A stretch of 64,000 bases of DNA, from the NCBI RefSeq assembly GCF_019933235.1, contig NZ_CP082945.1, positions 2,170,001 through 2,234,000 of the forward strand, in the 5' to 3' direction. Under the pieces are notes generated by a model. The model made no database searches. It saw nothing but the letters and a program-made list of their open reading frames with translations, and had not been told where the DNA came from. The position numbers and the translations under genes were made by a program. Shown one piece after another: positions 8,891-61,668 of the stretch. The stretch's first letter is position 1. Each line of letters begins with the position of its first letter. Source of the stretch: Streptomyces angustmyceticus (GTDB lineage Bacteria; Actinomycetota; Actinomycetes; Streptomycetales; Streptomycetaceae).

Positions 8891-9697
8891 TCAGCCCGCC
8901 TGGGGGTCACCCGGCGTATAGCTCAGGCGCTCCACCGTGCCCTTGTCGCCGACCTTCTTGACCTCCTTGCCGTTGACGTACAGCTGTACGGCTCCGGCGT
9001 TCCCGAGGACCAGGTCGATGCGTTCCTTGTCGGTGATGGTCTTGGACTCGCCCTTCTTGAGCAGCCCGTCCTCCAGGAGCTTGCCGTTGGCGTCCTTGGC
9101 GGAGATCCAGCTCTGGCCGTCACGCGCGGTCACCTTGATCGTGACCTTGTCCTTCGGCAGCCCGGCGACGGCGCTCTCGGAGGGATCGGGCTTGACGGGC
9201 GGCTTGATGGTGGAGGGGTGGCGGGTGGGCGCCGGCGCCGGCTTCGCGTTGGCGTCGCCGGCCGTGATCGGTCCGTCGTCGCTCTTGTCGCCGCCCGTGA
9301 AGAGCGTGAAGCCCACGAACCCGACCACCGCGACGATCGCCGCGACCATCGCCGCGGTCCAATTGGGGCGGCGCGGCTCGGAGCGGATCCGCTCGGCCTC
9401 GAAGAGCGGTGCGGCGGGGGTCGGCGCGGGCCGTCCGCCGTGCTCGGCGTCGAACTGGTCGATCAGCGGTCCGGGATCGAGCGAGACGGCGCGGGCGAGC
9501 GCCCGGATGTGCCCCCGGGCGTAGACGTCACCGCCGCAGCGGGAGAAGTCGTCCTGCTCGATCGCGTGCACCAGGGGGATGCGCACCCGTGTCGTCGTAC
9601 TGACCTCTTCGACGGTCAGTCCCGCTCCGATACGGGCCTTCTGGAGGGCAGCACCGACGGAAGGCCGGTCTGCTTCGGGGGAGTTGCCGATGGACAC
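8891..9697 (-). CDS. RodZ-like helix-turn-helix membrane protein
   Basis: 268 residues. Order: HTH_25 domain of the RodZ/CopB class ([20 protein letters not shown]...[15 protein letters not shown], about residues 12-75, with [11 protein letters not shown] after it), a single membrane helix ([17 protein letters not shown], near residue 125), a Pro-rich linker and a C-terminal beta domain of the DUF4115 type (residues 190-268). RodZ links MreB to the wall-building machinery in rods; in Streptomyces the role is uncertain. I chose the GTG at 9697 because GAAAGG lies at proper distance before it and similarity starts there; the frame is open to 9868 but that part looks non-coding. Located between rimO and ftsK on the same strand, with its own promoter-like sequence. 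Confidence 0.82.
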
Positions 9698-41341: not shown

Positions 41342-44300
41342 GTGAGCGTTGTCATTGTCAAGCGCCCGCCCCGCGCGCTGCCACCTGAAGTCCCCTCGGA
41401 GGAGGTGACACTCGAGGCGCCTCCGGAGCTTCCGCGTGAGGGCGAATCAGAGAACATGCTGATGACCCTTATGCCCATGATGGGTATGGCGTCTTCGGCG
41501 GGATTCTTGTTCATGGGCAACCAGCCGTTCATGAAAATCATGGGCGGCTTTATGGTGGCGTCCACCCTGGCAATGGCGATCGTGCAGATCGTCAAAGCCC
41601 GGCAAGGGCCTTCCGGGCAAATGCTCCAAGAGCGCCAGGATTACCTCAAGTACCTGACGCAGAAGCGGAAAGAAGTACGGCGTACCGCGCGCAAGCAGCG
41701 CGACGCGCAGTTGTTCACCCACCCCGATCCGAGCCAGTTGTGGTCGGTCGTGGCCGAGGGCAAACGCGTGTGGGAGCGCCGGGCGACCGATCCGGACTTC
41801 GGGCAGGTACGACTGGGGCTGGGGCCGCAGCAGTTGGCCACTCCCCTGCGGGCCCCGGAGACCGCGCCGGTCGACGAGCTGGAGCCGCTGACCGCGCATG
41901 CGATGAAGGAATTCCTCGACAAGCACGGCCAATTGGACAACCTGCCGCTGGCCGTCTCGCTGCGGGCCTTCTACCACCTGACGGTCTCCGGTGACCCGGA
42001 CACCGTCTACGGCGCCTCGCGCGCCATCGTCGCCCAGCTGTGCACCCTGCACTCGCCCGAGGACCTGGTGGTGGCCGTCGTCGCCGCGCCCGGTGCGCAG
42101 GCCGAGTGGGAGTGGACCAAGTGGCTGCCGCAGGTGCAGGACAAGTCCACGGACGGCGCCGGGTCGCGCCGGCTGGTGGTCGGCGACCTCGGTGAGATCG
42201 AGGAGCTGCTGGCGGACGAGCTGGAGGGCCGCGGACGGTTCAACCCGCAGGGCACCCCGGTGACCGACACCCCGCACGTGCTGGTCGTGCTGGACGGCGG
42301 CGAGGTGCCGATGGACTCGGTGATCGCCGGGGCCGAGGGCCTGCAGGGCGTCACCATCCTGGAGGTCGTCCCGGGCGACCTGGACGAGATCCGCGGCGGT
42401 CTGGCCGTGCAGGTGTGGCCGGGCAAGCTGGTGCTGGAGTCGGCCAGCGGCGCGGTCTACCACGGTGTCTGCGACACCCTGTCGATCCCCGAGGCGGAGG
42501 CGCTGGCGCGTCAGCTGGCCCCGCTGCGGGCGGGCTCCGGCGCGGACGGCGAGGAGCCGCTGCTGTCGAACCTGGACTTCACCGACCTGATGAACATCGG
42601 TGACGCCGGTTCCGTCGACGTCTCGCGCACCTGGCGGCCACGTACGCTCCACGAGCGGCTGCGGGTGCCGATCGGTGTCGACAAGGACGGCCAGCCCGTC
42701 ATGCTCGACATCAAGGAGGCCTCGCAGGAGGGCATGGGCCCGCACGGCCTGTGTGTCGGTGCGACCGGTTCCGGCAAGTCCGAGGTGCTGCGCACCCTGG
42801 TGCTCGCGCTCGCGGTCACCCACTCCTCGGAGACCCTGAACTTCATCCTCGCGGACTTCAAGGGCGGCGCCACCTTCACCGGTATGTCGGAGATGCCGCA
42901 CGTCGCGGCCGTCATCACCAACCTCGGTGAGGACGTCACCCTGATCGACCGCATGCGCGACTCGATCACCGGTGAACTCCAGCGCCGTCAGGAGCTGCTG
43001 CGCTCCGCGGGCAACTACGCCAACATCACCGACTACGAGAAGGCGCGTGCGGCGGGTGCCCCGCTGGACCCGCTGCCCTCGCTGGTGATGGTGCTCGACG
43101 AGTTCTCCGAGCTGCTGACCGCCAAGCCCGACTTCATCGACATGTTCATCCAGATCGGCCGTATCGGCCGGTCGATGGGTGTGCACATGCTGCTCGCCTC
43201 GCAGCGCCTGGAGGAGGGCAAGCTGCGCGGTCTGGACACCTTCCTCTCCTACCGGCTGGGCCTGCGGACCTTCTCCGCGGCCGAGTCGCGGACCGCGATC
43301 GGTGTGCCGGACGCCTACCACCTGCCGAACGTCCCCGGTTCCGGCATCCTCAAGTACGACACCGAGACGATGGTCCAGTTCAAAGCCGCGTACGTCTCGG
43401 GCCCGTACCGCGGCCCCGGTGCGGGCGGCGGTCCCGGTGGCAGCCGCACGAACCGGCTGCCGGTGCCGTTCACCGCGGCCCCGGTCGTCGAGCAGATCAT
43501 CGAGGACCCCACGCCGGTCGAGCCGGTCGAGCCGGAGCAGGACGACGCGCTCGCCGACACCGTGCTCGATGTCATCGTCCAGCGCATGCAGGGCCAGGGC
43601 CCGCCGGCGCACCAGGTGTGGCTGCCGCCGCTGGACGAGCCGCCCACGGTCAACCAGCTGCTGCCGGCCCTCGCGGTCACACCCGAACGGGGTGTGCACG
43701 CACCGGAGTACACCGCGCTCGGCAAGCTCGTGGTGCCGGTCGCGCTGGTGGACAAGCCGTTCGAGCAGCGGCGTGACGTGATGTACCTGGACTTCTCCGC
43801 CGGCGCCGGTCACGGCCTGGTCGTGGGTGGTCCGCAGTCCGGCAAGTCCACGCTGATCCGGGCCGCGATCGCCTCGTTCGCGCTCACCCACACCCCGGCC
43901 GAGGTGCAGTTCTACTGCCTCGACTTCGGTGGCGGCGGCATGCTGACCATGGAGGGCCTGCCGCACGTCGGCGGCGTCGCCTCGCGTCTGGACGCGGAGA
44001 AGGTGCGCCGTACGGTCTCCGAGGTCGTCGGCATCCTCAACGAGCGCGAGGAGTTCTTCCGGGCGAACAACATCGACTCGATCGGCACCTATCGCCAGCG
44101 CCGGGCCTCGGGCGCCTACCCCGACCAGAAGTGGGGCGACGTCTTCCTGGTCATCGACGGCTGGGCGACGTTCAAGACCGACTACGAGCAGATGGACCCG
44201 GTGATCCTGGACATCGCCGCCCGTGGTCTCGGTTTCGGTGTCCACCTGATCATCGCCGGTGCCCGTTACACCGAGGTGCGGCCCGCGCTGCGCGACCAGC

Positions 44301-45298
44301 TCCTCAACCGCGTCGAGCTGCGCCTGGGCGACCCGATGGAATCGGAGTTCGACCGCAAGCGCGCGGAGAACGTGCCGATGGGCAAGCCCGGCCGCGGTAT
44401 GTCCCCCGAGAAGCTCGACTTCCTGGCGGCGCTGCCGCGGCTGGACGGGATGAGCGACCCGGAGACGCTCAGCGACGGCATCGCGAACCTGGTGTCGACG
44501 GTCAGCGAGCACTGGCAGGGCGAACCCGCCCCCGCGGTGCGGATGCTGCCGACGATGCTGCACGTCAACGAGCTGCCCAAGGGCAACGACTACCCCGAGC
44601 ACGGCATCGCGATCGGCGTCGACGAGACCACGCTGTCCCCGGCGTTCATCGACTTCGAGACCGACCCGCTGCTGGTCATCTACGGCGAGAGCGAGTCGGG
44701 CAAGTCGTCGCTGCTGCGTCTGCTGGCCAAGCAGATCGCCGAGCGGTACCCGTCGGAGAAGGCGCTCATGGTGGTCTCCGACTACCGTCGCGCCCTGCTC
44801 GGCGAGATCCCCGAGAGCCACATGTACAAGTACTGTGCGGCGGGGCCGCAGTTGCAGGAGGTCATCACGGGTCTGGCCGGTTCGCTGGGCCGCCGGATGC
44901 CGGGCCCGGACGTCACGCCGGAGCAGCTGCGCAACCGCAGCTGGTACGACCTGCCGGACGCGTTCGTGATCGTGGACGACTACGACCTGGTGGCGACCAG
45001 CAGCGGCAACCCGCTGCAGCCGCTGCTGGAGTACCTGCCGTTCGCCCGTGACCTGGGTCTGCGCCTGATCATCGCGCGCAGCTCCTCGGGCGCCGGACGT
45101 TCCTCGTTCGAGCCGGTGATGCAGCGGACCAAGGAGCTCGGCGCGCAGGGTCTGATCCTGTCCGCCGACCCGGCCGAGGGCCCGCTGATGGGCAACATCA
45201 AGGGCCAGAACCTGACGCCGGGACGGGCCACGTTCATCACGCGCAAGCGCGGTGCGCAGCTGGTCCAGACGGGCTGGCTGCCGGCGAACAGCGGCTGA
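41342..45298 (+). CDS. eccC: Type VII secretion ATPase EccC (EccCa-EccCb in one chain)
   Basis: 1318 residues, GTG start. Two membrane helices near the N-terminus (about residues 38-85), a DUF domain, then three FtsK/SpoIIIE-type ATPase domains with Walker A motifs GATGSGKSE (473), GGPQSGKST (829) and GESESGKSS (1115). Only the first domain keeps the full set (Walker B LVMVLDEFSELL), as known for EccC, where ATPase 3 binds the C-terminal signal of WXG100 substrates. It is the motor that drives secretion of EsxB/EsxA-type substrates. It is one chain, not the split EccCa/EccCb of ESX-1. Strong terminator after the stop. Confidence 0.96.
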   Translation: MSVVIVKRPPRALPPEVPSEEVTLEAPPELPREGESENMLMTLMPMMGMASSAGFLFMGNQPFMKIMGGFMVASTLAMAIVQIVKARQGPSGQMLQERQDYLKYLTQKRKEVRRTARKQRDAQLFTHPDPSQLWSVVAEGKRVWERRATDPDFGQVRLGLGPQQLATPLRAPETAPVDELEPLTAHAMKEFLDKHGQLDNLPLAVSLRAFYHLTVSGDPDTVYGASRAIVAQLCTLHSPEDLVVAVVAAPGAQAEWEWTKWLPQVQDKSTDGAGSRRLVVGDLGEIEELLADELEGRGRFNPQGTPVTDTPHVLVVLDGGEVPMDSVIAGAEGLQGVTILEVVPGDLDEIRGGLAVQVWPGKLVLESASGAVYHGVCDTLSIPEAEALARQLAPLRAGSGADGEEPLLSNLDFTDLMNIGDAGSVDVSRTWRPRTLHERLRVPIGVDKDGQPVMLDIKEASQEGMGPHGLCVGATGSGKSEVLRTLVLALAVTHSSETLNFILADFKGGATFTGMSEMPHVAAVITNLGEDVTLIDRMRDSITGELQRRQELLRSAGNYANITDYEKARAAGAPLDPLPSLVMVLDEFSELLTAKPDFIDMFIQIGRIGRSMGVHMLLASQRLEEGKLRGLDTFLSYRLGLRTFSAAESRTAIGVPDAYHLPNVPGSGILKYDTETMVQFKAAYVSGPYRGPGAGGGPGGSRTNRLPVPFTAAPVVEQIIEDPTPVEPVEPEQDDALADTVLDVIVQRMQGQGPPAHQVWLPPLDEPPTVNQLLPALAVTPERGVHAPEYTALGKLVVPVALVDKPFEQRRDVMYLDFSAGAGHGLVVGGPQSGKSTLIRAAIASFALTHTPAEVQFYCLDFGGGGMLTMEGLPHVGGVASRLDAEKVRRTVSEVVGILNEREEFFRANNIDSIGTYRQRRASGAYPDQKWGDVFLVIDGWATFKTDYEQMDPVILDIAARGLGFGVHLIIAGARYTEVRPALRDQLLNRVELRLGDPMESEFDRKRAENVPMGKPGRGMSPEKLDFLAALPRLDGMSDPETLSDGIANLVSTVSEHWQGEPAPAVRMLPTMLHVNELPKGNDYPEHGIAIGVDETTLSPAFIDFETDPLLVIYGESESGKSSLLRLLAKQIAERYPSEKALMVVSDYRRALLGEIPESHMYKYCAAGPQLQEVITGLAGSLGRRMPGPDVTPEQLRNRSWYDLPDAFVIVDDYDLVATSSGNPLQPLLEYLPFARDLGLRLIIARSSSGAGRSSFEPVMQRTKELGAQGLILSADPAEGPLMGNIKGQNLTPGRATFITRKRGAQLVQTGWLPANSG

Positions 45299-47541: not shown

Positions 47542-49932
47542 ATGGGGGACGAGGAAGTCATGAGCGCCTCAGGCGAAGGAAATGCCGTGGCAGCCGGATA
47601 CGCACCACATCCGTACATCGGCGGCCGCACCGCCGTGCTCCGCGCACTCGCGGCCTGGCGCATGCGCTGGCCCGGCGCACCGCGCGTCATCGTGCTCACC
47701 GGCAACCCGGGCAGCGGGCGATCGCGCCTGGTCACAGGCTTCTTGATGATGTGCGACCCCGGCTACCGCAAGCAGTTGCCGCTGGACGACCTGGACCCGG
47801 CGACGGTGCCCCCGGACCTCCCCGCACCCGCCGTACCGAGCCCCGCGGGGCGCACCGCCGCACAGCTGTTGTGGATGATCTCCGATCATTTCGGACTGGA
47901 CGCCGGGCGCGGCGATGACATCTTCACCGAACTCGCCGCTCGTGAAGAGCCGGTGACTCTGGTGGTGCCGGATGTGGACCGGGCCGGTCCGGTGCGCGCC
48001 GCGGACGAGCCGGCCCGTGTCGTCCGGGACGTGCTCAAGCCGCTCGCCGCCACCGAAACGGTTCAGCTGCTCGCCGAGGTACCGCGCGAACTGGCCGCGG
48101 AGCTGGCCGGGGCACTGCCGTCGGGCCAGGCGCAGATCATCGACCTCGACGCGGCCGAGTGGGCCGACCCCAAGGGCCTGGTGCTGCACGCCGAGACCGC
48201 GCTCACCCCCGAGGCGGGGGCGCCGGACCTCCCGTTCACCACCGACCCGTCGGCGCGCCGGGCGCTCGCCGAGGCCCTCGCGGCCCGCGCGGACGGCAAC
48301 CGGCTCACCGTCCAGCTCGCCGTGCAGTCGCTGCTCCTGCAGCCCGAGGGCTTCGACCCGGCGGACGCGTCGCTGCTGCCCGGCACCGTCGGCGAGGCGC
48401 TCGACCTGCACGCCCGCCGGCTGGGCGCCGATCCGCAGACCCTGCGGCTGATGCTGGCGCCGCTCGCGCTGGCGGAGGGCGAGGGGCTGCCCGTCCAGCT
48501 GTGGGGCACGCTGGCGAGCGCGGTCGCCGGCCGGGACATGAGCCAGGACCTCACCGACGGCATGCTGCTGGCCGCGCCGTTCGTCCAGCCGGTCGAGCCG
48601 TCGCGGGACGGGGACGGGAACGGCGACGGGGGCGAGGACGGGAACCGGGGCGGTGTCCCGAGTAGCGCCGCGGACGGCGGCGGGGCCGGTGCCGGGGCCG
48701 GTGCCGCTTCCGGTGCCGGCAGCGACCGTACGCTGCTGCGCCTGACGCACCCCGGGGTCGCCGAGGAGATCCGCTCCGGCCTGCCGGACGTCCGCGACGC
48801 CCAGACCCGGATCGCCATGGCGCTGCTGGAGGCGGTGCCCCAGCAGGACTGGTCCCGGGCCGATCCGTACGTCCGCGACCATCTGGCGGCGCACACCCTG
48901 GACGCCGGCCTGCTCCCCCAACTCCTCACCGACCCGGGCCTGTTCGCGCACGCGGACCCGGTGACGATGCGGACCGCCATCGAGGCCGTACCGCCGGAGC
49001 AACTGGGCGCACCGGCGCGTACGTACCTGCGCACCGCCCCGCTGCTCACCCGCTCCGCGGCCCCCGCCGAACTGCGGGCGGCGTTCCTGGAGTCCGCGTT
49101 CGTCGAGGACGGGCTGGTGGCCTACGCGGAGGCCCTGCACACGCTCGGCTTCCGCCTGCCGTGGCGGACACTGTGGAGCGTGCCGCTGGTCGGCGTCCGC
49201 GCGGTGACGACGGGGACGCTGCCGCCGGCGAACGAGAGCGCCGGCTCCGCGGTGGACGCGGGCGGGAACCCGGACGGGACGTCGGCGGAAGCGGGCGGGA
49301 ACCCGGGCGGCACGGCGGCGGAAGCGGGCGGGAACCCGGATGGCACGTCGGCGGAGGCAGCCGGGGGCCCGGGTGCGACACCGACCACCCCCTCCACCTC
49401 CTCCGGCCCGTCCGGCTCCTCCGGCCCGTCCGGCTCCTCCGGCTCCGGCGCCCCGGCGCCGGTTTCCGGTACCGCCGCGCCCCGTCCCGTGGCCGCCTTC
49501 CTCGTCCCCGAGGGAACCCCGGGCTCCCGTACGCTGCCCGGCCAGGACGGCGACGCCCCCGGGGCGGGCGGCCGGGCCCTGCTCGTCCACGATCTGCTGC
49601 GCCCCGGGTACCTCGACGCCGATCCGGCACAGGTGCAACTGACCTCCGCGCAGGCCCAGGAGGCCGCGCCGTTCGGGCTCAGCCGCGGCGCCGACTACCT
49701 GCGGGTCTGGGCCCGGGCGAGCGAGGAAGTGGTGGCCGCGCTGGTCTCCGACACCCCGTTCACCGGCGCCGACCTCTCCCCGGACGGCGTGCTGGTCGTG
49801 GCCACCGCGCGCGGTGTGACCGCCCGGCAGATCCTCGCCGCGGCTCCCGCGCCCGCCCCCACCGTGCCGGCCCAGCGCACCGGCACCGCCGACTCCGCTC
49901 CGTCCGACGGCCTCGAAGGAGACCACTCGTGA
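47542..49932 (+). CDS. Large P-loop protein of the ESX locus with Arg in the Walker A motif
   Basis: 796 residues. N-terminal P-loop of AAA/STAND style: VIVLTGNPGSGRS (about residues 53-65), in which the usual GxxxxGK[ST] Lys is Arg. A Walker B-like VTLVVPDVDRAG follows (about 140). A helical region follows with repeated Leu/Ala helices (as in STAND sensor parts), then a low-complexity linker with 33-bp repeats and Ser/Gly/Pro runs (about 570-640) and a last globular region (650-780) with LSPDGVLVVATARG. The ATG at 47542 is chosen as GGAGG lies eight bases before it; a GTG at 47527 would place this inside the gene. Stop overlaps the start of the immunity-type gene (GTGA). Exact family not recognised; nucleotide binding unproven. 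Confidence 0.7.
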   Translation: MGDEEVMSASGEGNAVAAGYAPHPYIGGRTAVLRALAAWRMRWPGAPRVIVLTGNPGSGRSRLVTGFLMMCDPGYRKQLPLDDLDPATVPPDLPAPAVPSPAGRTAAQLLWMISDHFGLDAGRGDDIFTELAAREEPVTLVVPDVDRAGPVRAADEPARVVRDVLKPLAATETVQLLAEVPRELAAELAGALPSGQAQIIDLDAAEWADPKGLVLHAETALTPEAGAPDLPFTTDPSARRALAEALAARADGNRLTVQLAVQSLLLQPEGFDPADASLLPGTVGEALDLHARRLGADPQTLRLMLAPLALAEGEGLPVQLWGTLASAVAGRDMSQDLTDGMLLAAPFVQPVEPSRDGDGNGDGGEDGNRGGVPSSAADGGGAGAGAGAASGAGSDRTLLRLTHPGVAEEIRSGLPDVRDAQTRIAMALLEAVPQQDWSRADPYVRDHLAAHTLDAGLLPQLLTDPGLFAHADPVTMRTAIEAVPPEQLGAPARTYLRTAPLLTRSAAPAELRAAFLESAFVEDGLVAYAEALHTLGFRLPWRTLWSVPLVGVRAVTTGTLPPANESAGSAVDAGGNPDGTSAEAGGNPGGTAAEAGGNPDGTSAEAAGGPGATPTTPSTSSGPSGSSGPSGSSGSGAPAPVSGTAAPRPVAAFLVPEGTPGSRTLPGQDGDAPGAGGRALLVHDLLRPGYLDADPAQVQLTSAQAQEAAPFGLSRGADYLRVWARASEEVVAALVSDTPFTGADLSPDGVLVVATARGVTARQILAAAPAPAPTVPAQRTGTADSAPSDGLEGDHS
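49261..49370 (+). repeat. 33-bp in-frame tandem repeat
   Basis: Three full units starting at 49261, 49294 and 49327 (each begins GGCGGGAACC) and a decayed fourth near 49360. They encode GGNPDGTSAEA-type 11-residue repeats in the linker of the P-loop protein. Confidence 0.9.
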
Positions 49933-51254
49933 TCACCCAGGCGCAGGCCCAGGCCACCGCCGCCCGCTGGCTCAGCCCCGAGGGGCACCAGGGTCCGCCG
50001 CGGGACGTGGCCATGCAGGAGTTCGACCTCGGCTGGGTGGTGTGGGCCGTACCGCCGCCCCCGGAGACCGACCCGCGGACCGGGCAGCGGCGCCCGCCCG
50101 CCGAGGTCGGGGCCGCCTGCGGAGTCGTCGACCGGGCGTCCGGCGAGCTGACGGTGTGGCCGTCGGTACCGGTCGACGAGGTCATCGGGATGTACCGGCA
50201 GAAGCACGGCGCCGGAGCGGCTCCCTCGGCACCCGAGGAGCGCCCGGTCACCGGCCCCGGCAACACGGCCGTCGCGACCTACAACGACCCGTCGACCGGC
50301 GAGGAGACCAGCCTCGCCCGGGTCTCGGCGCCCGGAGCCCCGCCCGCCGAGTACCAGCTCCTCGACGAGCTGCGGCGGCTGGGCGCGGACCCCGCGGACG
50401 TCCGCGCCGTCCACACCGATCTGCGCTCCGCCCTCCTGCCCGGCGGCTACCCCGGCGACCTCCTCCTCCGCACGTTCACCAACGCCACGTTCTCCTGCAC
50501 CGAGGGCTACGGCATGCGCCCCGAGGAGCGCGCCGAGGGCGTCGCCGGGCTGGTGCGGCACGTCGAGATGATGCACCGGATGGCGGGCCGGGAGGCGCCG
50601 CCGCGGCCGCACCGGCTGCCGGTGCCGCAGCACGTCGAGGCCGCGCCGCAGATGCGTGACGTGGCCCTCGGCAGGCACCTCGTGGAGGTCTTCGGCCCCC
50701 AGGGCGTATGCCGTCCGGACGCCGACGACCTCGCCGCGACGCGGCTCCCCGGGGCCACGAGGAACACCCTGGTCTGGGCCGGACTGCCCGCCCAGGTCCC
50801 GTACTTCTTCACCGCCGACCGCCCCGACGCCCCGCCGGCCGGCGGCCTGTTCACGGACGTGGCGACGCACCTGCGGGAAACCGGCACCCAGGCCGGCGAA
50901 GAGACCCTGACGACCCTCGCCGGCTACGTCCGGCTCGGCACCGACGGTCTCTACCCCCTCGCCGTCCAGTGCACCGCGACGGAACAGAACCAGAACCTCA
51001 TCGGCACCGTCTGGGCCGTCCAGCCCTCCTCGGGCGGCGGCCGCTTCGTCAACCGCTCCGTCGCCACCTACCTGCGCTCCCTCGCCCTGCTGACCACCAC
51101 CCGCACCCACATGCAGGGCATGGACCCCTACGCGGCCGGCACAGCGGTCGCCACCTTCCAGCAACAACTCGCGGCCATCGACCCCTGGTCACTCGACGAC
51201 AACAGCAACTGGTGGTCCCTGATCATCGAGCAGATGTGGCATGGGTTGTTCTGA
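49929..51254 (+). CDS. Three-domain immunity-type protein: Imm35/YrhB-like, inactive deaminase-like, SUKH-4-like
   Basis: 441 residues, GTG start overlapping the previous stop. Residues 1-95 resemble the Imm35/YrhB fold (EFDLGWVVWAV ... GVVDRASGELTVWPSVPVDEVI..Y). Residues about 115-215 resemble the nucleic-acid deaminase domain of polymorphic toxins, which in active relatives has HTELRSCELPGGYC; here it reads HTDLRSALLPGGYP, so Glu is Asp and both zinc-binding Cys are gone. Residues about 240-441 resemble SUKH-4 immunity proteins (VCRPDADDLAATRLPG, TLAGYVRLGTDGLYPLAVQC, GRFVNRSVATYLRSL, WSLIIEQMWHGLF). Likely a cytosolic binding protein, not an enzyme. Operon with the atypical P-loop protein, in the middle of the ESX locus. 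Domain calls come from remembered motif patterns. Confidence 0.72.
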   Translation: MITQAQAQATAARWLSPEGHQGPPRDVAMQEFDLGWVVWAVPPPPETDPRTGQRRPPAEVGAACGVVDRASGELTVWPSVPVDEVIGMYRQKHGAGAAPSAPEERPVTGPGNTAVATYNDPSTGEETSLARVSAPGAPPAEYQLLDELRRLGADPADVRAVHTDLRSALLPGGYPGDLLLRTFTNATFSCTEGYGMRPEERAEGVAGLVRHVEMMHRMAGREAPPRPHRLPVPQHVEAAPQMRDVALGRHLVEVFGPQGVCRPDADDLAATRLPGATRNTLVWAGLPAQVPYFFTADRPDAPPAGGLFTDVATHLRETGTQAGEETLTTLAGYVRLGTDGLYPLAVQCTATEQNQNLIGTVWAVQPSSGGGRFVNRSVATYLRSLALLTTTRTHMQGMDPYAAGTAVATFQQQLAAIDPWSLDDNSNWWSLIIEQMWHGLF

Positions 51255-51473: not shown

Positions 51474-51773
51474 TCAGGGCAACAACAACCAGTCCGCGGC
51501 CAGTGCGGCCGCCAGGCCAATAGCCAACAACCAGGTACCGAGCCGGGTACGCCCGTGCCGACTGAGTTCGATCACCACACCACAGAGCACCAGCGCGGCC
51601 CCGTACACCCCGACCACCAGCACCGACGTACGCGACGCCAGGCGCACCACGAGCACCACCGCCATCGCGGCCATCAACACCGAGGCCAGGACAATGCGTA
51701 TTCGCCTGGCCTGACGAGGCGTCAGCCCCACTCGACTCTCAGCAAGGGGCTCTTCATCGCCGACTACGTCCAT
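51474..51773 (-). CDS. Small three-helix membrane protein, function unknown
   Basis: 99 residues. Short acidic N-terminus, then three hydrophobic helices (about 28-45, 51-69 and 80-98) with basic loops. The ATG at 51773 is preferred; the frame is open to a TTG at 51875 but the extra part overlaps the relic end. Last gene of the minus-strand ESX run; no family recognised. Confidence 0.55.
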   Translation of the reverse strand: MDVVGDEEPLAESRVGLTPRQARRIRIVLASVLMAAMAVVLVVRLASRTSVLVVGVYGAALVLCGVVIELSRHGRTRLGTWLLAIGLAAALAADWLLLP

Positions 51774-51947
51774 GAGCGGGAATGCTACGGGACGAGTGAT
51801 CACCAAGGCCCCCCACTCCCCCGAACAACGCCAACTACACGGAACCCGGAGCCGATTCACCTCACCCTTCGGCAAAACTCCGAACCCCCGGGGCCAGGAG
51901 CACGCACACCCTGGCCCCCGAGCCGCCCACCCGTACCCTGTACTCGC

Positions 51948-52212
51948 TACGGCCGCCCCGGCGGCTGCACAGGCGGCACCGCCGGATACTCCCCAGGGGC
52001 CCCGTACCGCTGATACGCCCCTTGCTATCGATCACTGCGACCGTGACGCCTCTGCCTGTTGATACCTTCCACACGCTCTCGGCATCAAATGCCTTCAACG
52101 GCCACTGATCATTTCTGATCTGGTCCGCAAAGGCAGCTGGAGCGGAGCCGAAGAGCAGCGCTCCCGCCACCACCGCACCACCCACCGCACGCAGCGTCCG
52201 CGTGAAGCTCAC
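51948..52212 (-). pseudogene. Internally deleted mycosin gene (S8 protease relic)
   Basis: The first 62 codons (signal peptide MSFTRTLRAVGGAVVAGA..., mature start ADQ, and strand VTVAVID ending at the catalytic Asp) are closely similar to the intact mycosin at 52408-53763. Directly after the Asp codon the sequence jumps to the Pro-rich C-terminal tail (AYQRYGAPGEYP...VQPPGRP, stop at 51948-51950), which lies in another frame. So the His and Ser parts and the membrane helix are gone by one internal deletion. Read through in the first frame the ORF gives nonsense up to 51862. A signal peptide could still send a short peptide out. Confidence 0.85.
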
Positions 52213-52236
52213 TCCGTAATTCCCCTCCCTGACGTG

Positions 52237-52272
52237 CTTGGGGCCCGCAACCGTCAGGCTGCGGGCCCCAAG
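52237..52272 (-). terminator. Hairpin between intact mycosin and mycosin relic
   Basis: Perfect 13-bp stem CTTGGGGCCCGCA/TGCGGGCCCCAAG with ten-base loop. It lies 24 bases upstream of the relic, in the same relation as the hairpin at 53783-53824 has to the intact mycosin, so hairpin plus gene seem to have been duplicated as a unit. Confidence 0.75.
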
Positions 52273-52407: not shown

Positions 52408-53763
52408 TCAACGCCCCGGCGGCTGAGTGGGCGGCGCCGGCGGGTAAGCCCCAGGGCCGCCAGGCTGCTGCTGATACGGCCCGGGCTGCTGGTACGGCCC
52501 CGGCTGCTGCTGATAGGGACCCGGCTGCTGCGGCGCGAACCCGGGACCACCGGGCCCGCCGAAGCCTCCAGGGCCGCCGGGGGGCGGGCCGTTGCGACCG
52601 TTCTTCTTCTGCCGGACGACAACAACAACGACGATGACCGCCACCACAACGAGAACGCCAACCGCGATACCCACGATGGCACCCACGCCAAGGCCGTCTT
52701 CCTTCTGACCACTCGCCTGCTGGTCACCACTGCCGGCCGTCGTAACTCCGGTGCCCGCGGACGGATCCGCCTTCGGCGCCTTCAGCGGACCGTTCTTGGA
52801 GCCATCCGGGATATCGGCGGTCAGAGCCTTCAGCGGCTGGATGAAGCCGTATCCGTAATGCGAGTCAGGAAGCGAAAGCCCCTTCTGCCCCGGCGGCAGG
52901 CCAGCCGACTTCACAAGCCGGTTGGCGATCTGGCCTGCGGAGAGGTCGGGGTACTTCGAGCGCAGGAGAGCAGCTGCGGCCGAGACGTACGCGGTGGCGT
53001 CGGACGTGCCATCGGCCAGCCGGTACTGCCCAGCGGTAGCAGATGCGGACGTGATCTCTACGCCGGGAGCCGTAAGCATGAGCTGGCTGCCTGAATTCGA
53101 CTTTGACCAGACCTGGCCGGTCTTGTCTACTGCGCCTACGGACAGAACCCCCGGAACAGAGGAAAGATCACTGATCTTGCTCGCACCGTCGTTTCCTGCT
53201 CCAGCGACGACCAGGACGTCCTTCTTCATGGCATAAGAAACTGCGAGTTCATCGGAATCGGTGATGCCGGCAGGGTCAATCGACAGGTTGATGACAGAAG
53301 CCCCGTGATCGACTGCGTACTTGATCCAGTCGCTGAGCCCTGCATCGTCTACGCCCGTTCCGACTTCGGGAGAGGCAACGGGAAGAATCTTGGCATCCGG
53401 GGCAAGACCCATAATGCCATCGGCGTTTCCGGCACCATGCCCGTGGCCAGCGATGAGTGACGCCATGCCGGTGCCGTGGTCACCTGTTCCCTTGCGGTCA
53501 CCGCGTCCACCATCGATAAAACTCTTCCCTGGCAGCACATTACCCTTCAGGTCAGGGTGACTGCCGTTCACGGGATCATCGATTACGGCGACCGTGACGC
53601 CCTTGCCCGTCGATTCCTTCCAGATGCTCGCGGCATCAAACGCTTTGAGTGGCCATTGATCCTTACGGTTCTGATCAGCCAAAGCAGTCGGAGCGGTGCC
53701 GAAGAGCAGTGCTCCCGCCACCACCGCGCCGCCCACCGCACGCAGCGTCCGCGTGAAGCTCAT
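52408..53763 (-). CDS. Mycosin-type subtilisin (second MycP-like protease)
   Basis: 451 residues. Sec signal peptide ending ...TALADQ (about residues 1-30), peptidase S8 domain with Asp62 (VAVIDDPVNGSHPDL), His96 (GDHGTGMASLI), Asn191 (AGAGNDG) and Ser254 (DGTSDATAYVSAAAAL), C-terminal membrane helix (VGAIVGIAVGVLVVVAVIVV, about 365-385) and a cytosolic Gly/Pro/Gln-rich tail of PYQQQPG repeats. The catalytic Asp is followed by DP instead of the usual TG, so specificity may differ. Mycosins stabilise the ESX channel and cleave secreted factors. ATG at 53763 is used; a GTG nine bases upstream is possible. Lies after the PPE-like gene behind a hairpin. Confidence 0.9.
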   Translation of the reverse strand: MSFTRTLRAVGGAVVAGALLFGTAPTALADQNRKDQWPLKAFDAASIWKESTGKGVTVAVIDDPVNGSHPDLKGNVLPGKSFIDGGRGDRKGTGDHGTGMASLIAGHGHGAGNADGIMGLAPDAKILPVASPEVGTGVDDAGLSDWIKYAVDHGASVINLSIDPAGITDSDELAVSYAMKKDVLVVAGAGNDGASKISDLSSVPGVLSVGAVDKTGQVWSKSNSGSQLMLTAPGVEITSASATAGQYRLADGTSDATAYVSAAAALLRSKYPDLSAGQIANRLVKSAGLPPGQKGLSLPDSHYGYGFIQPLKALTADIPDGSKNGPLKAPKADPSAGTGVTTAGSGDQQASGQKEDGLGVGAIVGIAVGVLVVVAVIVVVVVVRQKKNGRNGPPPGGPGGFGGPGGPGFAPQQPGPYQQQPGPYQQPGPYQQQPGGPGAYPPAPPTQPPGR

Positions 53764-53782
53764 GCCGTACACCTCTCCCTAG

Positions 53783-53824
53783 CGAGGTGAGGCCCGCAGC
53801 CCAAGGACTGCGGGCCTCACCTCG
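53783..53824 (-). terminator. Hairpin between PPE-like gene and second mycosin
   Basis: Perfect 17-bp stem CGAGGTGAGGCCCGCAG and its complement with an eight-base loop, 35 bases past the PPE-like stop. No T-tract. Confidence 0.8.
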
Positions 53825-55882: not shown

Positions 55883-57166
55883 TTAAGCCTCCCCGTGATT
55901 GTTCAAACCGGTCTTGCGGCGCCAGTCGCGGATGGCGATCGAGGAGCCGACGACCGCGGCGACGGCAAGAAGTCCGGCGCCGACGATGTAGATGGAAATG
56001 CGGGCGCGTCGTTCCTCGGGGGATTCACCGAAAGTCACGGCGGCCGGCTGGATGTTGGAGCCGGCAGCCGCGTTGGTGGGCTTGTCCGGCTTGGGTGAGG
56101 CGGTGGGCCTGGTGTCGTCGTTGAGGGCGGCCACCGGGTCGACGACGCCCCAGCCGATGTTGTGGTCCGCCTCCCTGCGCACGCGCTCCGCGGTCTGCTC
56201 CAGGTGCCAGATGACCTCGCGCGGGGTCCAGGGCTTGGGGTCGTGCAGGTGCTTCGCGATGAGGAGGGCCGCGGCTCCCGCGGCGTAGGGTGCGGCGAAG
56301 CTGGTGCCCTGGTCGACGCAGTTGCCGCCGTCGGGGACGGTGGAGACCATGTCGACGCCCGGTGCGGCGATGTCGACCCGCTCGCCCGGCTGGGAGAACG
56401 GGGCCCGCTCGTTGTTGCGGTCCGAGGCCGCGACGGACAGTACGTTGTCGTACTGCTGGAACGAGGCGGGGTACATGTTCTTCTCTTTGCCGCTCGCGCC
56501 GTCGTTGCCGGCGGAGGCGACGATGAGGATGTTCTGGGCGGCGGCGTTGCGGATCGCGGCCTGGAGGGGGCCCAGCTTGTCCGGGCTGGCGTCCGTGCCC
56601 TGGGAGATGTTGATGACGTTGACCTTGAGGCGGACCGCGTAGTTGATCGCGGCGGCCAGGCTGTCGGAGTTCCCGGCCTTCTCGTCGCTCGTCTGCTGCA
56701 GGGGGATGACGGTCGCGCCGGGCGCGATGCCGACGAATCCCGAGCCGGACTTGCTGTGGGCGGCGATGATGCCCGCGACCTTGGTGCCGTGCCCGACCCG
56801 GTCGTCGGTCGGCTTGCCCTTCACGAAGCTCTTCCCGCCGCTTCCGATGGCGGGTTTGATCTGCGGGTTGCCCGCGTCGATGCCGGTGTCGATGACGGCG
56901 ACCCGGACGCCCTTGCCCGTGGACTGGGCCCACATCTGCTTGGTCAGCAGCCGCTGGAGCGACCAGGGGGTCTCCGGGATGTCGTCGGCGCCGAACTTGC
57001 ACTCGCCGCTGTTGAGCGGCACGTTCGGGTCCGCGACGGCCGGTGCGGCCGTGCCGCACGTCAGGCCGGCGAGGCACGCCGCCGTGACCAGTGCACCTGC
57101 CGCTCGTCGGCGGTGCCCGGCTCGGTGACCAAGGGCGCGAGATCCCACGGGTTGTCTGCTCTCCAT
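55883..57166 (-). CDS. mycP: Type VII secretion mycosin MycP
   Basis: 427 residues. Signal peptide (about 1-46, cut after AVA-D), N-terminal extension with Cys56, S8 domain with Asp93 (AVIDTGID), His126 (GHGTKVAGII), Asn221 and Ser289 (GTSFAAPYAAG), and a C-terminal membrane helix (YIVGAGLLAVAAVVGSSIAI) with short basic tail. Cys56 and Cys283 could form the disulfide known in mycosins. The long Pro-rich tail of the second mycosin is missing. ATG at 57166 chosen; the upstream open frame has no coding character. Follows esxA behind a hairpin. Confidence 0.93.
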   Translation of the reverse strand: MESRQPVGSRALGHRAGHRRRAAGALVTAACLAGLTCGTAAPAVADPNVPLNSGECKFGADDIPETPWSLQRLLTKQMWAQSTGKGVRVAVIDTGIDAGNPQIKPAIGSGGKSFVKGKPTDDRVGHGTKVAGIIAAHSKSGSGFVGIAPGATVIPLQQTSDEKAGNSDSLAAAINYAVRLKVNVINISQGTDASPDKLGPLQAAIRNAAAQNILIVASAGNDGASGKEKNMYPASFQQYDNVLSVAASDRNNERAPFSQPGERVDIAAPGVDMVSTVPDGGNCVDQGTSFAAPYAAGAAALLIAKHLHDPKPWTPREVIWHLEQTAERVRREADHNIGWGVVDPVAALNDDTRPTASPKPDKPTNAAAGSNIQPAAVTFGESPEERRARISIYIVGAGLLAVAAVVGSSIAIRDWRRKTGLNNHGEA

Positions 57167-57224
57167 GTGTGGCGGAAGGGGCGGGGCGGGAGGGAGAAAA
57201 CGAAGGTGCGGGTGGACGGCAGAA

Positions 57225-57255
57225 GGGCGAGCGCACCGGTGCAGCGCGCTCGCCC
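57225..57255 (-). terminator. Hairpin between esxA and mycP
   Basis: 10-bp stem GGGCGAGCGC/GCGCTCGCCC with an 11-base loop, followed by TTCT on the minus strand. Probably partial, lowering expression of mycP relative to esxBA. Confidence 0.7.
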
Positions 57256-57323
57256 TCATTGACCACTGTGCGAGCCGTCGGGGCTGCTCAGCCGATCGCC
57301 ATCCGTGGTGTGCCGACCTTGGG

Positions 57324-57617
57324 TCAGCCCGCCCAGATGCCGGAGTTCTTGTGCTCGGTGGCCTGGTAGTTCTGGGCGGCCTGGTCCAGCGCCTTGGCGA
57401 TGGCCTCGAGCGTCGAGTGCAGGGAGGCGGCGCGCTGGTCCCACTCGCGCTGGCGGGCCTGGTAGCCCTCCTGCGCCGCACCTTCCCAGCTGGCGGCGAT
57501 CTTCTTGACGCCGGCCTCGAGGTCGTCCAGCTGCTGGCGGATGTTGTTGGCCGTACCGCGCACGTCGGAACTGGCCTGCGAGATCGTCGCGAAATTAACG
57601 AGGATCTGGCCTGACAT
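57324..57617 (-). CDS. esxA: WXG100 secreted protein EsxA
   Basis: 97 residues, helix-turn-helix hairpin with Trp44-Glu-Gly46 (SWEGAAQEGY) and C-terminal export signal Tyr84-x3-Glu88 (YQATE). Partner of EsxB in a heterodimer; in S. coelicolor the pair is needed for proper sporulation (known for homologues). Preceded by GGAG at good distance. Confidence 0.95.
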   Translation of the reverse strand: MSGQILVNFATISQASSDVRGTANNIRQQLDDLEAGVKKIAASWEGAAQEGYQARQREWDQRAASLHSTLEAIAKALDQAAQNYQATEHKNSGIWAG

Positions 57618-57739: not shown

Positions 57740-58063
57740 TCATCCGAACGGGGAAGCCGAGGCGGAGACGTGCGAGATCGACTGGGCCTGCTCCTCTTCG
57801 GAGGCGGAGTAGTTCTTCGTGGTCTCGTCGATCGCTTCCTTGATCTCAGCCAGCAGCTGGTTGAGACGGTTGGCGTCCTCGTTCACCTGGGACTGGAGCT
57901 GGTTGTACGAGGAGGCCGCAGCACCCTTCCAACCAGACGTGATGGTGTCGACGACCGTGTTCAGGCGCGAGATCTCGCCCTGGATCGACTGGTTGACCGA
58001 GGAGATCTTGCCGCTGAACGCGACCATCTCCTCCTCGGTGGTTGTGTACTGCTGACCAGCCAT
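57740..58063 (-). CDS. esxB: WXG100 secreted protein EsxB
   Basis: 107 residues with Trp45-Lys-Gly47 (GWKGAAASSY) and C-terminal export signal Tyr85-x3-Glu89 (YSASE). ATG at 58063 has GGGGGA upstream; an in-frame start at 58105 is less likely. First gene of the esxB-esxA-mycP-EspC-like-PPE-like run; a 17-bp palindrome lies about 137 bases upstream. Confidence 0.95.
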   Translation of the reverse strand: MAGQQYTTTEEEMVAFSGKISSVNQSIQGEISRLNTVVDTITSGWKGAAASSYNQLQSQVNEDANRLNQLLAEIKEAIDETTKNYSASEEEQAQSISHVSASASPFG

Positions 58064-58199
58064 AGTCAACGTCCCCCATGAGACTTGTACGTCGTACCGC
58101 GCCATGCCGCCACAGGCGCTCGCGCGGTAGGCATCTCCTGCTGACGCCTTTGGCTACTTTAACCACTCGATATGCCTCTCCCCAACAGGGGGAGCGTTC

Positions 58200-58458: not shown

Positions 58459-60096
58459 TCAGGACGACTGCGGCTTCATGGCGCTGTTGATGTCGAGCGA
58501 CGGGCCCTCGGAAAGCAGGCTCGACCATGCCTTCAGAATCAGCGGCGGATGCGTGCCCCCGTAGCCGAGGTGGAGCCTGGACTTGTCCAGTTCCTCCTTG
58601 TCGCTGCCGGCCTTGTTCGCGCTGTCGTTGTTCCGCGGAATGGAGTAGCGCAGGCCGGTGTCCGTTGCAAGGAAGAGGCTGCCGCTCTTCGCCTGCGGAG
58701 TGGGCACCTCCGTGTACAGCAGGCCGCTGCCGGGGGTGACGTACGAGCTGGATCCGCTGGCCATCTTGGCCGGGTAGTCCGTGCCGATCCAGGTCTGCAT
58801 GTCCGGCACGCCGTTCGGGTAGCCGAGCCGCTTCTCCTCACCGCCCGGGTACTTGTGGTTGGTGCCGTTGTAGACGCTGCAGGACACGCCGTGGTCCGTG
58901 GGCGAGGTCAGGCCGCCGGTCTGGGAACCGTGGGCGAAGTCGTTGGCCGCGGACTGGGTTTCGGTCGGCCACGGCGAGTCGATGTCGCCGAACACCTTGC
59001 CCAGGAAGGTCGTCGGGTTCCCCGCGTCGTCCGTCTTCGGGTCGATGCTTCCGGCCGCGATGGGCACCGGGGTGAGCCGGGAGCCGTCGGGGTGCAGCTT
59101 CTTCGCGTTCGCGCCCTCCTCCAGGAGGTTCGCGACGAACTTCGACACCTTCTCGACGCCGTCCCGCTCGACGACGTACTTGTCGCCGGAGCTGTCCTGG
59201 AGGATCGAGCCGACCCTCCGGGCCTTCTGCGGGACCTTCGGGTCGCTGGTCTCGGCGCCCGCGCCCTCGACCATCGGCATGCTGAGGGAGAGCTGCTCGG
59301 GGACGGGCAGCAGGGTCGCCATGAACTGCTTCGACACCTTCTGCGGAACGGCGTTGGAGCCGAAGATGATGCGGCGCAGCGCGGCGTCGCCCTCCTCCTT
59401 GCCCCCGGCGGGGCTCCACCCCATGCGGGTGGAGTCGAATCCGAAGGCCATGCCGTTGTGATCGACCAGCCACCTCTTGCCCTGCGGGTCCTCGACGTAC
59501 AGCGCCTGGTGGAGGTCGAGCTTGCCCTTGCCCTCGACGAGCTTCTTGTCCTTGCCGGCCAGGACGAAGACGGCCTGCTGGGGCTTGGCTCCGGCGCTCG
59601 CGCCGGGGCGGTCGCACACCGCCCAGGTCTTCGGCTTGTCGGCGTCCTCGGGGCTGGGCAGCCGGTCGGGGGCGTACGGAATGCCGAGCGCGGGGCCGTG
59701 CGGAATCTTTCCGTCCAGCTCGGATTCCTTGACCTTGACGACTTGGAACTTCGGGTCGATAAGAAGGCGGGCGGAGGCGAGGTTCAGGATGGGGTGCAGA
59801 AGTTTCTGGCCTTTGCCGCCCTTGCCTTTCAGAACGACATACCGCGTGGTGGATTCGTCCCCGACGATGACATTCTTGCCGACCTCGTCCCACCCCTGCG
59901 GCGCAACCGGCTTGAGAATGCCGCACGCGCCGAATCCGACGAGCATCAGGACACCCACGACGACACTCGGCACCACCGCCTTGAGCGGCTTGGGGGCGCT
60001 CTCGATCGAGCCGTTCGGCAGCGGCTTCAGAAATGCCGCATTCGTACGCTTTCGAGCGAACGAATACGCATTCAGCTCGTCCCGACGTGATGCCAT
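58459..60096 (-). CDS. eccB: Type VII secretion membrane protein EccB
   Basis: 545 residues. Starts MASRRDELNAYSFARKR, the EccB N-terminal basic stretch that contacts EccC, then a single membrane helix (VVPSVVVGVLMLVGFGACGIL, about residues 41-61) and a large extracytoplasmic domain with the R-repeat-like pattern and Cys residues. It forms the periplasmic/outer face of the channel with MycP. ATG at 60096. Divergent from eccE across a 186-base promoter region. Confidence 0.93.
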   Translation of the reverse strand: MASRRDELNAYSFARKRTNAAFLKPLPNGSIESAPKPLKAVVPSVVVGVLMLVGFGACGILKPVAPQGWDEVGKNVIVGDESTTRYVVLKGKGGKGQKLLHPILNLASARLLIDPKFQVVKVKESELDGKIPHGPALGIPYAPDRLPSPEDADKPKTWAVCDRPGASAGAKPQQAVFVLAGKDKKLVEGKGKLDLHQALYVEDPQGKRWLVDHNGMAFGFDSTRMGWSPAGGKEEGDAALRRIIFGSNAVPQKVSKQFMATLLPVPEQLSLSMPMVEGAGAETSDPKVPQKARRVGSILQDSSGDKYVVERDGVEKVSKFVANLLEEGANAKKLHPDGSRLTPVPIAAGSIDPKTDDAGNPTTFLGKVFGDIDSPWPTETQSAANDFAHGSQTGGLTSPTDHGVSCSVYNGTNHKYPGGEEKRLGYPNGVPDMQTWIGTDYPAKMASGSSSYVTPGSGLLYTEVPTPQAKSGSLFLATDTGLRYSIPRNNDSANKAGSDKEELDKSRLHLGYGGTHPPLILKAWSSLLSEGPSLDINSAMKPQSS

Positions 60097-60282
60097 TGTT
60101 GCTTTCTCTCCCCGCCTGTTGGATCCACATCGACCGCCCCCGGCACTCACGCCGTAGCGCCCTCTACTATGCCGTGTGTCGATCGACCCGTACGGTACGG
60201 GTGCCACCTTCCGGCGCACCAGTCTCAACGGGCGACCGATACGTCAGAGGGCCACACCACCAGTAGAGGAGCAGGCCGGGGG

Positions 60283-61668
60283 ATGTCCAGCGCCACCAGG
60301 GCTCGACGCCGCAATGGGCGGCAACAGCAGCAACAGCCTTCCGCTGCCCCGCAATACGCGGGAAATGCTGGCCAAAACGGTACAGCTTCGGGCAACAGAG
60401 GAAATGGCGACCGGGATTCCGCAGCCCGTCCGGTCGGCCCGGTGGCACCGCGGCTGCGCCAGCAGGCCGGAACCATCGGCGGGGTGCGCGTCCAGCAACT
60501 GGCCATCATCGAACTCGCCGCCGCGCTGGTGCTGGTGGGCTGGACGATCCACCCGGCCGCGCTGACCGCGGCCATCGTGATCGCGGCCCTGCTGGTCGTC
60601 TTCGCGCTCGGCCGGCGGCGGAGGATTCCGCTCCCGGAGTGGATCACGACCGTGCGCGCCATGAAGCGCCGCGGCAAGGAGAGCGCGGCCGCGCTGGCCG
60701 CCACGCAGGGCGTGGACCCCGCGTTCGCGCCGGTGGTGGAGTGTGAACCGGCGCTGCAGACCTACGAGTTCACCACCGAGGCGGACCAGCGCGCCATCGG
60801 CTTCGTCGGTGACGGGACGTTTCTGACGGCCCTCGTGCAGGTGGACGCCCGTGACGAGCCGCTGCGGCCGCAGCGCGGCAGCCACATGCTGCCGCTGGAG
60901 GTGCTGCACACCGCGCTCGACATCGAGGACATCCACCTCGAATCGGTGCAGTTCGTGCAGTACACCCAGCCCGCGCCGGCGCCGCACCTGCCCGAACAGG
61001 CCGTCGCGGCCCGCTCGTACGCCCCGCTGCAGGCCCAGTCCCAGACGCCGGCGCTGCAGCTGACCTGGATCGCCCTCAAGCTCGACCCCGAGCTGTGCGC
61101 GGAGGCGATCGAGGCCCGTGGCGGCGGGATGGAGGGCGCCAAGCGGTCGCTGCTGCGCGCCGCCGACCAGCTCGTCAGCCGGCTGACCGCACACGGCGTA
61201 CGCGCCAAGGTGCTCGCCGAGCGCGAGGTCGTGGCCGCCATCGGTACCGCGGTGTGCGTCAGCCCGCGGGCCGCCAACGGGGCGATGGGGCGCGACGGCC
61301 GGGCGGCCCGCCGCACCCAGGAGACGACCCGGGCCATGCGCTGCGACGACCGCTGGCACACCACCTACTGGATCGGCCGCTGGCCCCAACTCGGCGAGGG
61401 CGGTGCCCCGTTGGCGGCGGTCACCCAGCTGCTGACCAGCACCAGGGCGATGGCGAGCACCTTCACGCTGACCGCCACCCACGGCGGCGGCCGCGCCCCG
61501 GCCATCTCGGGATACGTCCGTCTTTCCACCCGCAGTGAGAACGAACTCTCCGCCGCCCAGAGCGAGTTGGAGCGCCGTTCCGGTTCCGTGAAGGTCGGGC
61601 TCGTACGGCTCGACCGGGAACAGCTGCCCGGCCTGCTGGCCACGCTCCCCCTCGGAGGTACCCGCTGA
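60283..61668 (+). CDS. eccE: Type VII secretion protein EccE
   Basis: 461 residues. Basic Gln-rich N-terminus (RRRNGRQQQQQ), two membrane helices (about residues 70-105, QLAIIELAAALVLVGWTIH and LTAAIVIAALLVVFAL), then a soluble mixed domain, the EccE shape. It stabilises the ESX membrane complex from its outer rim. ATG at 60283 with GAGGAG upstream. Stop and the next start share an A (TGATG). Confidence 0.88.
   Translation: MSSATRARRRNGRQQQQQPSAAPQYAGNAGQNGTASGNRGNGDRDSAARPVGPVAPRLRQQAGTIGGVRVQQLAIIELAAALVLVGWTIHPAALTAAIVIAALLVVFALGRRRRIPLPEWITTVRAMKRRGKESAAALAATQGVDPAFAPVVECEPALQTYEFTTEADQRAIGFVGDGTFLTALVQVDARDEPLRPQRGSHMLPLEVLHTALDIEDIHLESVQFVQYTQPAPAPHLPEQAVAARSYAPLQAQSQTPALQLTWIALKLDPELCAEAIEARGGGMEGAKRSLLRAADQLVSRLTAHGVRAKVLAEREVVAAIGTAVCVSPRAANGAMGRDGRAARRTQETTRAMRCDDRWHTTYWIGRWPQLGEGGAPLAAVTQLLTSTRAMASTFTLTATHGGGRAPAISGYVRLSTRSENELSAAQSELERRSGSVKVGLVRLDREQLPGLLATLPLGGTR

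Follow-up and report, generated by a model that had tools for sequence, protein, structure and literature searches.

The 64,000-nucleotide stretch of Streptomyces angustmyceticus DNA analysed here (the window) contains an ESX (type VII secretion, T7SS) locus, in which one short reverse-strand segment is very probably a pseudogene. It would be what internal deletion has left of mycosin B, the second member of an old Streptomyces tandem pair. The analysis shows its two parts, the change of frame between them, the intact or damaged tandem copies of relatives and its closer kinship with B. The 5′ part (52027..52212, reverse strand), defined by repeat, translation and trees, opens with a GTG start and comprises 62 codons, which cover the signal peptide and the N-terminal extension and end with the catalytic Asp. 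The 3′ part (51947..52026, reverse strand), defined by tail alignment, is the Pro/Gln-rich C-terminal tail in another frame; its TAG stop lies at 51949-51947, one base beyond the end at 51948 given in the original prediction.

The 5′ part belongs to a 192-nt direct repeat with 83% identity (52027-52218 versus 53578-53769) between the relic and its intact neighbour, mycosin A, which lies upstream of it in the same orientation. Over the first 62 codons the two share 84% of amino acids and 83% of nucleotides, so that the proposed homology stands while the description 'nearly identical' does not. The repeat stops at 52027, where the codon for the catalytic Asp is complete. This Asp opens the subtilase triad (D62, H96 and S254 in A); the relic peptide ends with ...GRGVTVAVID (...VTVAVID) at this point, where the matching intact sequence is ...VTVAVIDDPVNG. 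From 52026 onwards, the sequence matches mycosin tails: the relic reads (x)QGAYQRYGAPGEYPAVPPVQPPGRP and neighbour A reads PYQQQPGGPGAYPPAPPTQPPGR, each followed by the stop. The bases after the join, AGCAAGGGGCGTATCAGC..., align from the very first position with A (AGCCCGGGCCGTATCAGC) and S. kronopolitis B (AGCAGGGGCCGTATCAGC). This alignment scored 34 with neighbour A and 36 with the best relative, and none of 2000 shuffles exceeded 20; the mycosin likeness of the tail is therefore not due to chance. A single internal deletion at the catalytic Asp, running into a Pro-rich tail in a different frame, was thus correctly predicted.

The join itself, GAT^AGC (52026..52027, reverse strand), marks the absence of about 1.1-1.2 kb, including His, Ser and the membrane anchor, as judged from the tail alignment and the lengths of intact copies such as S. 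kronopolitis B and neighbour A (451-488 codons). Both ends are collinear with an intact homologue, the middle is gone and the frame is broken, as in pseudogenes that arise by internal deletion. Such an event would have placed the last ∼25 codons, in a shifted frame, directly behind the catalytic Asp codon and removed the His, Ser, protease core and membrane anchor of mycosin B. Mycosins are described in two reports (PMC11217815, PMC5156307) in terms of a trimeric periplasmic cap and of protease processing. Compared with a T7SS mycosin (MycP; TIGR03921/Peptidase_S8 PF00082), the relic keeps the signal peptide, N-terminal extension, catalytic-Asp strand and C-terminal Pro/Gln tail, but has lost His and Ser along with the protease core and the anchor, and its two parts lie in different frames. 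Only the Asp strand is left of the Asp-His-Ser triad and S8 domain, and the tail begins downstream of the position of the deleted anchor. Consistently, a profile search returned no Pfam match for the relic, and TIGR03921 scored 20.8 bits over 21 residues.

When neighbour A and S. kronopolitis B stand in for the lost parent, no sequence is common to the two breakpoints, and a non-homologous join is therefore most likely; as far as relatives allow judgement, the short direct repeats that the original prediction proposed to look for are not visible. We infer that the middle of the relic was lost in a single blunt event. Tandem homologous genes are a known hazard for assembly, since their copies can be collapsed or mis-joined. 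However, the 8.1-Mb chromosome was assembled as one contig, the copies are just ∼80% identical, the join lies outside any sequence shared by both parents and the relic has a private ATG-to-GTG change of its start codon. An assembly artefact, which the original prediction had raised against itself, is accordingly very unlikely.

All 62 surviving codons are open, and they carry only three synonymous and two non-synonymous private changes, one of the latter being the start codon change. The dN/dS ratio between the relic and the nearest B copy, that of genome G307, is about 0.11 (0.059/0.544); A and S. kronopolitis A, a functional pair, give about 0.05 (0.035/0.642). The open codons, the few private changes and these ratios fit a recent loss, and the decay of the relic was probably fairly recent. 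The same open codons, together with a ribosome-binding-like GGGAGGGG and the low dN/dS inherited from the gene, could be taken to mean that a product has been retained for function, as a secreted peptide or as a decoy or regulatory leader. The N-terminal frame continues beyond the tail stop to 51862, giving a 116-aa ORF, and translation from the GTG would yield a secreted peptide of at most 116 aa without a protease. Yet the join is followed by 54 codons in the wrong frame, no similar truncated form occurs among the ∼25 mycosin copies examined, and the open frame is just as readily explained if the deletion is recent, which makes retained function highly improbable. One match in another genome (G325) that ended at the same Asp codon was considered as a similar truncated copy and rejected, because it belongs to a full-length 455-codon ORF; the match ends there owing to divergence after the Asp. 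The relic is an ordinary pseudogene, the dead member of a tandem pair that is unstable, and 51862-52212 should not be annotated as a gene.

Which mycosin the relic derives from was addressed by comparing it with A- and B-type copies, its N-terminal part being the one usable for trees. Over the 38 codons of the mature N-terminal part, the relic is 87% identical to G307, 82% to S. piniterrae B and 79% to S. kronopolitis B, as opposed to 77% to neighbour A. In a tree of codons 19-62 it joins the B mycosins of these three genomes with support of 90/89, a grouping that rests on 132 nt. Forcing the relic to pair with neighbour A cost 26 log units and was rejected (AU p=0.001); forcing it together with A and S. 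kronopolitis A cost 16 log units (p 0.014). These tests were picked after the trees had been seen and concern a short stretch. At sites diagnostic for B, the relic is B-like at six of eight, whereas any A copy treated alike reached 0-2. The tail on its own fits A-type and B-type tails equally well.

The original prediction had the relic copied from the gene next door. If this strain had recently duplicated the hairpin-mycosin unit of the neighbour and the new copy had then suffered the deletion, the 93% identity of the two signal-peptide regions and the hairpins ahead of both genes would be in agreement. However, the first 24 codons are similar across most mycosin copies, possibly through gene conversion, and therefore carry no grouping signal. 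The lower identity to neighbour A than to the B-clade copies in the mature part, the AU rejection, the B-type leader and the presence of the tandem pair in other species all argue against a recent copy, which is very improbable; what remains of the proposal is a hairpin-mycosin tandem unit that suffered a deletion. By these comparisons the relic is closer to the B mycosins than to its neighbour, and the B grouping, the AU rejection and the B-type leader point to a decayed B of an old pair rather than a fresh duplicate of A. Since both the grouping and the leader are of B type, the A-B duplication very probably predates these species, with B deleted on the present lineage.

An intact counterpart occupies the same slot in a related species. 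S. kronopolitis (L018) has A plus an intact 488-aa B, starting at 9573, in the position of the relic, and its tandem (L018:8010 and L018:9573) matches the window in slot, order and hairpin leaders; unlike the relic, its second copy is intact, and after this copy comes a WXG100 + WXG100_2 pair of which the window has no equivalent at this place. Two mycosins are also found at this slot in S. piniterrae (L020, the same as L082), G102 (L081) and G076 (L084), three in S. monomycini (L023), and one in S. sioyaensis (L021), NBRC 110611 (L019), G307 (L083) and others. In a tree of the protease bodies, the B copies of S. kronopolitis and S. piniterrae form one clade with the single G307 gene (100/99), separate from a group that contains the A of the window, the A copies of S. 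kronopolitis and S. piniterrae, the NBRC 110611 gene and both copies of G102. As in the window, the second copy is damaged in S. piniterrae and G102, albeit by other routes. In S. piniterrae, B has a frameshift near codon 82 (L020:9528-9806), where a draft-assembly error is possible; the second G102 copy (L081:8343-8543) combines a B-type leader with an A-type body and has lost the signal-peptide core. G307, the genome nearest to the relic in the N-terminal part, has one hybrid gene (L083:7660-7913) with an A-type hairpin and upstream flank joined to a B-type body, as expected of a deletion that fuses a pair; it thus looks like an A/B pair that has become a hybrid of A leader and B body. These cases document that in Streptomyces ESX loci the mycosins form unstable tandem pairs, whose recombination and decay differ by species.

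Most relatives carry a WXG100 + WXG100_2 (PF25547) pair on the opposite strand, between the last mycosin and a conserved small gene of 133 aa, e.g. at L018:11198-12669, L020:11048-12544 and L083:9480-11034. Comparison with these relatives identified the 133-aa gene at 51474..51875 (reverse strand) in the window, where it serves as the far-side marker. The distance from the last mycosin to this gene is 1.9-4.2 kb in most relatives. No WXG100 + WXG100_2 pair is present in the window at 51876-51946 (∼73 bp separate the relic tail from the 133-aa gene) or in S. sioyaensis (366 bp), and G102 retains just a fragment that matches the pair (L081:5109-5213). The pair is thus missing beside the relic and fragmentary beside the damaged second copy of G102. 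B might have been a specialized protease for the adjacent WXG100 substrates that was lost together with them, but we consider this unlikely. A strict tie between the two losses was not adopted, because S. piniterrae has the pair next to a frameshifted B and many single-mycosin species keep it.

As predicted, hairpins precede both the relic and the intact gene. The one ahead of the relic (inverted repeat I5, 52237..52272, reverse strand) has 16-nt arms with 94% complementarity and is of B type (GACTTGGGGCCCGCAGCC...GGTTGCGGGCCCCAAGC); that ahead of mycosin A (inverted repeat I3, 53783..53824, reverse strand) has 20-nt arms with 95% complementarity and is kept in relatives. The flanks of the relic's hairpin match those of the hairpins ahead of B in S. 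kronopolitis and S. piniterrae, and its leader is of the GACTTGGGG type, which it shares with S. kronopolitis B and, in altered form, with S. piniterrae B. The A copies mostly have another hairpin flank, then GGAGAGGTGTA. Altogether, a 13-bp stem stands directly before the start codon of the 23 compared mycosin copies from about 19 Streptomyces-type genomes. In their alignment 95.7% of cells pair, and seven of the 13 pairs show changes on both sides, a number above every one of 500 shuffles; since the aligned rows are related, this result is not to be read as a probability. The mycosin-leader hairpin had no match in Rfam, and a search for T-run terminators at this position found none. A few similar GC hairpins occur elsewhere in this genome. 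Our guess is that the hairpin acts as an intercistronic stabilizer or partial terminator ahead of each mycosin. Backed by compensatory changes, it may serve the ESX locus as a generally useful regulatory element, and this conserved leader is a more interesting by-product than the pseudogene itself.

Two intact mycosins accompany the relic in the locus, as had been foreseen. Mycosin A (52408..53763, or 52408-53772; reverse strand; 451 aa from the conserved ATG) matches PF00082 at 9e-43 and TIGR03921 at 2.3e-73 with 247 bits, below the curated cut-off of 278.75. It has an S8 domain with D62, H96 and S254, a Pro/Gln tail, and a signal peptide and transmembrane anchor that were both read from the sequence. 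The second, larger mycosin (532 aa; 55883..57481, reverse strand) matches PF00082 and exceeds the TIGR03921 cut-off of 278.75 with 294.8 bits. The loss of B would have been tolerated if these two suffice. The instability of the tandem pairs helps to pick A and the larger one as the likely essential mycosins. The literature searched, which covered few subscription journals, held no account of tandem mycosin decay in Streptomyces, which is not proof of absence. Further components of the locus are EccC (41342-45298), EccB (58459-60228, reverse strand), EccE (60169-61668) and a WXG100 pair (57740-58105 and 57324-57617, reverse strand). Adjoining the locus, a forward-strand gene (49161-51254) encodes a 697-aa protein with XOO_2897-like deaminase and SUKH-4 domains in one chain. 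The genome also encodes mycosin-like subtilases away from its ESX locus (G000:C1:3151737-3152906, 6546662-6547720 and 1579647-1580480), the first of which has likely counterparts in several Streptomyces (L029-L041).
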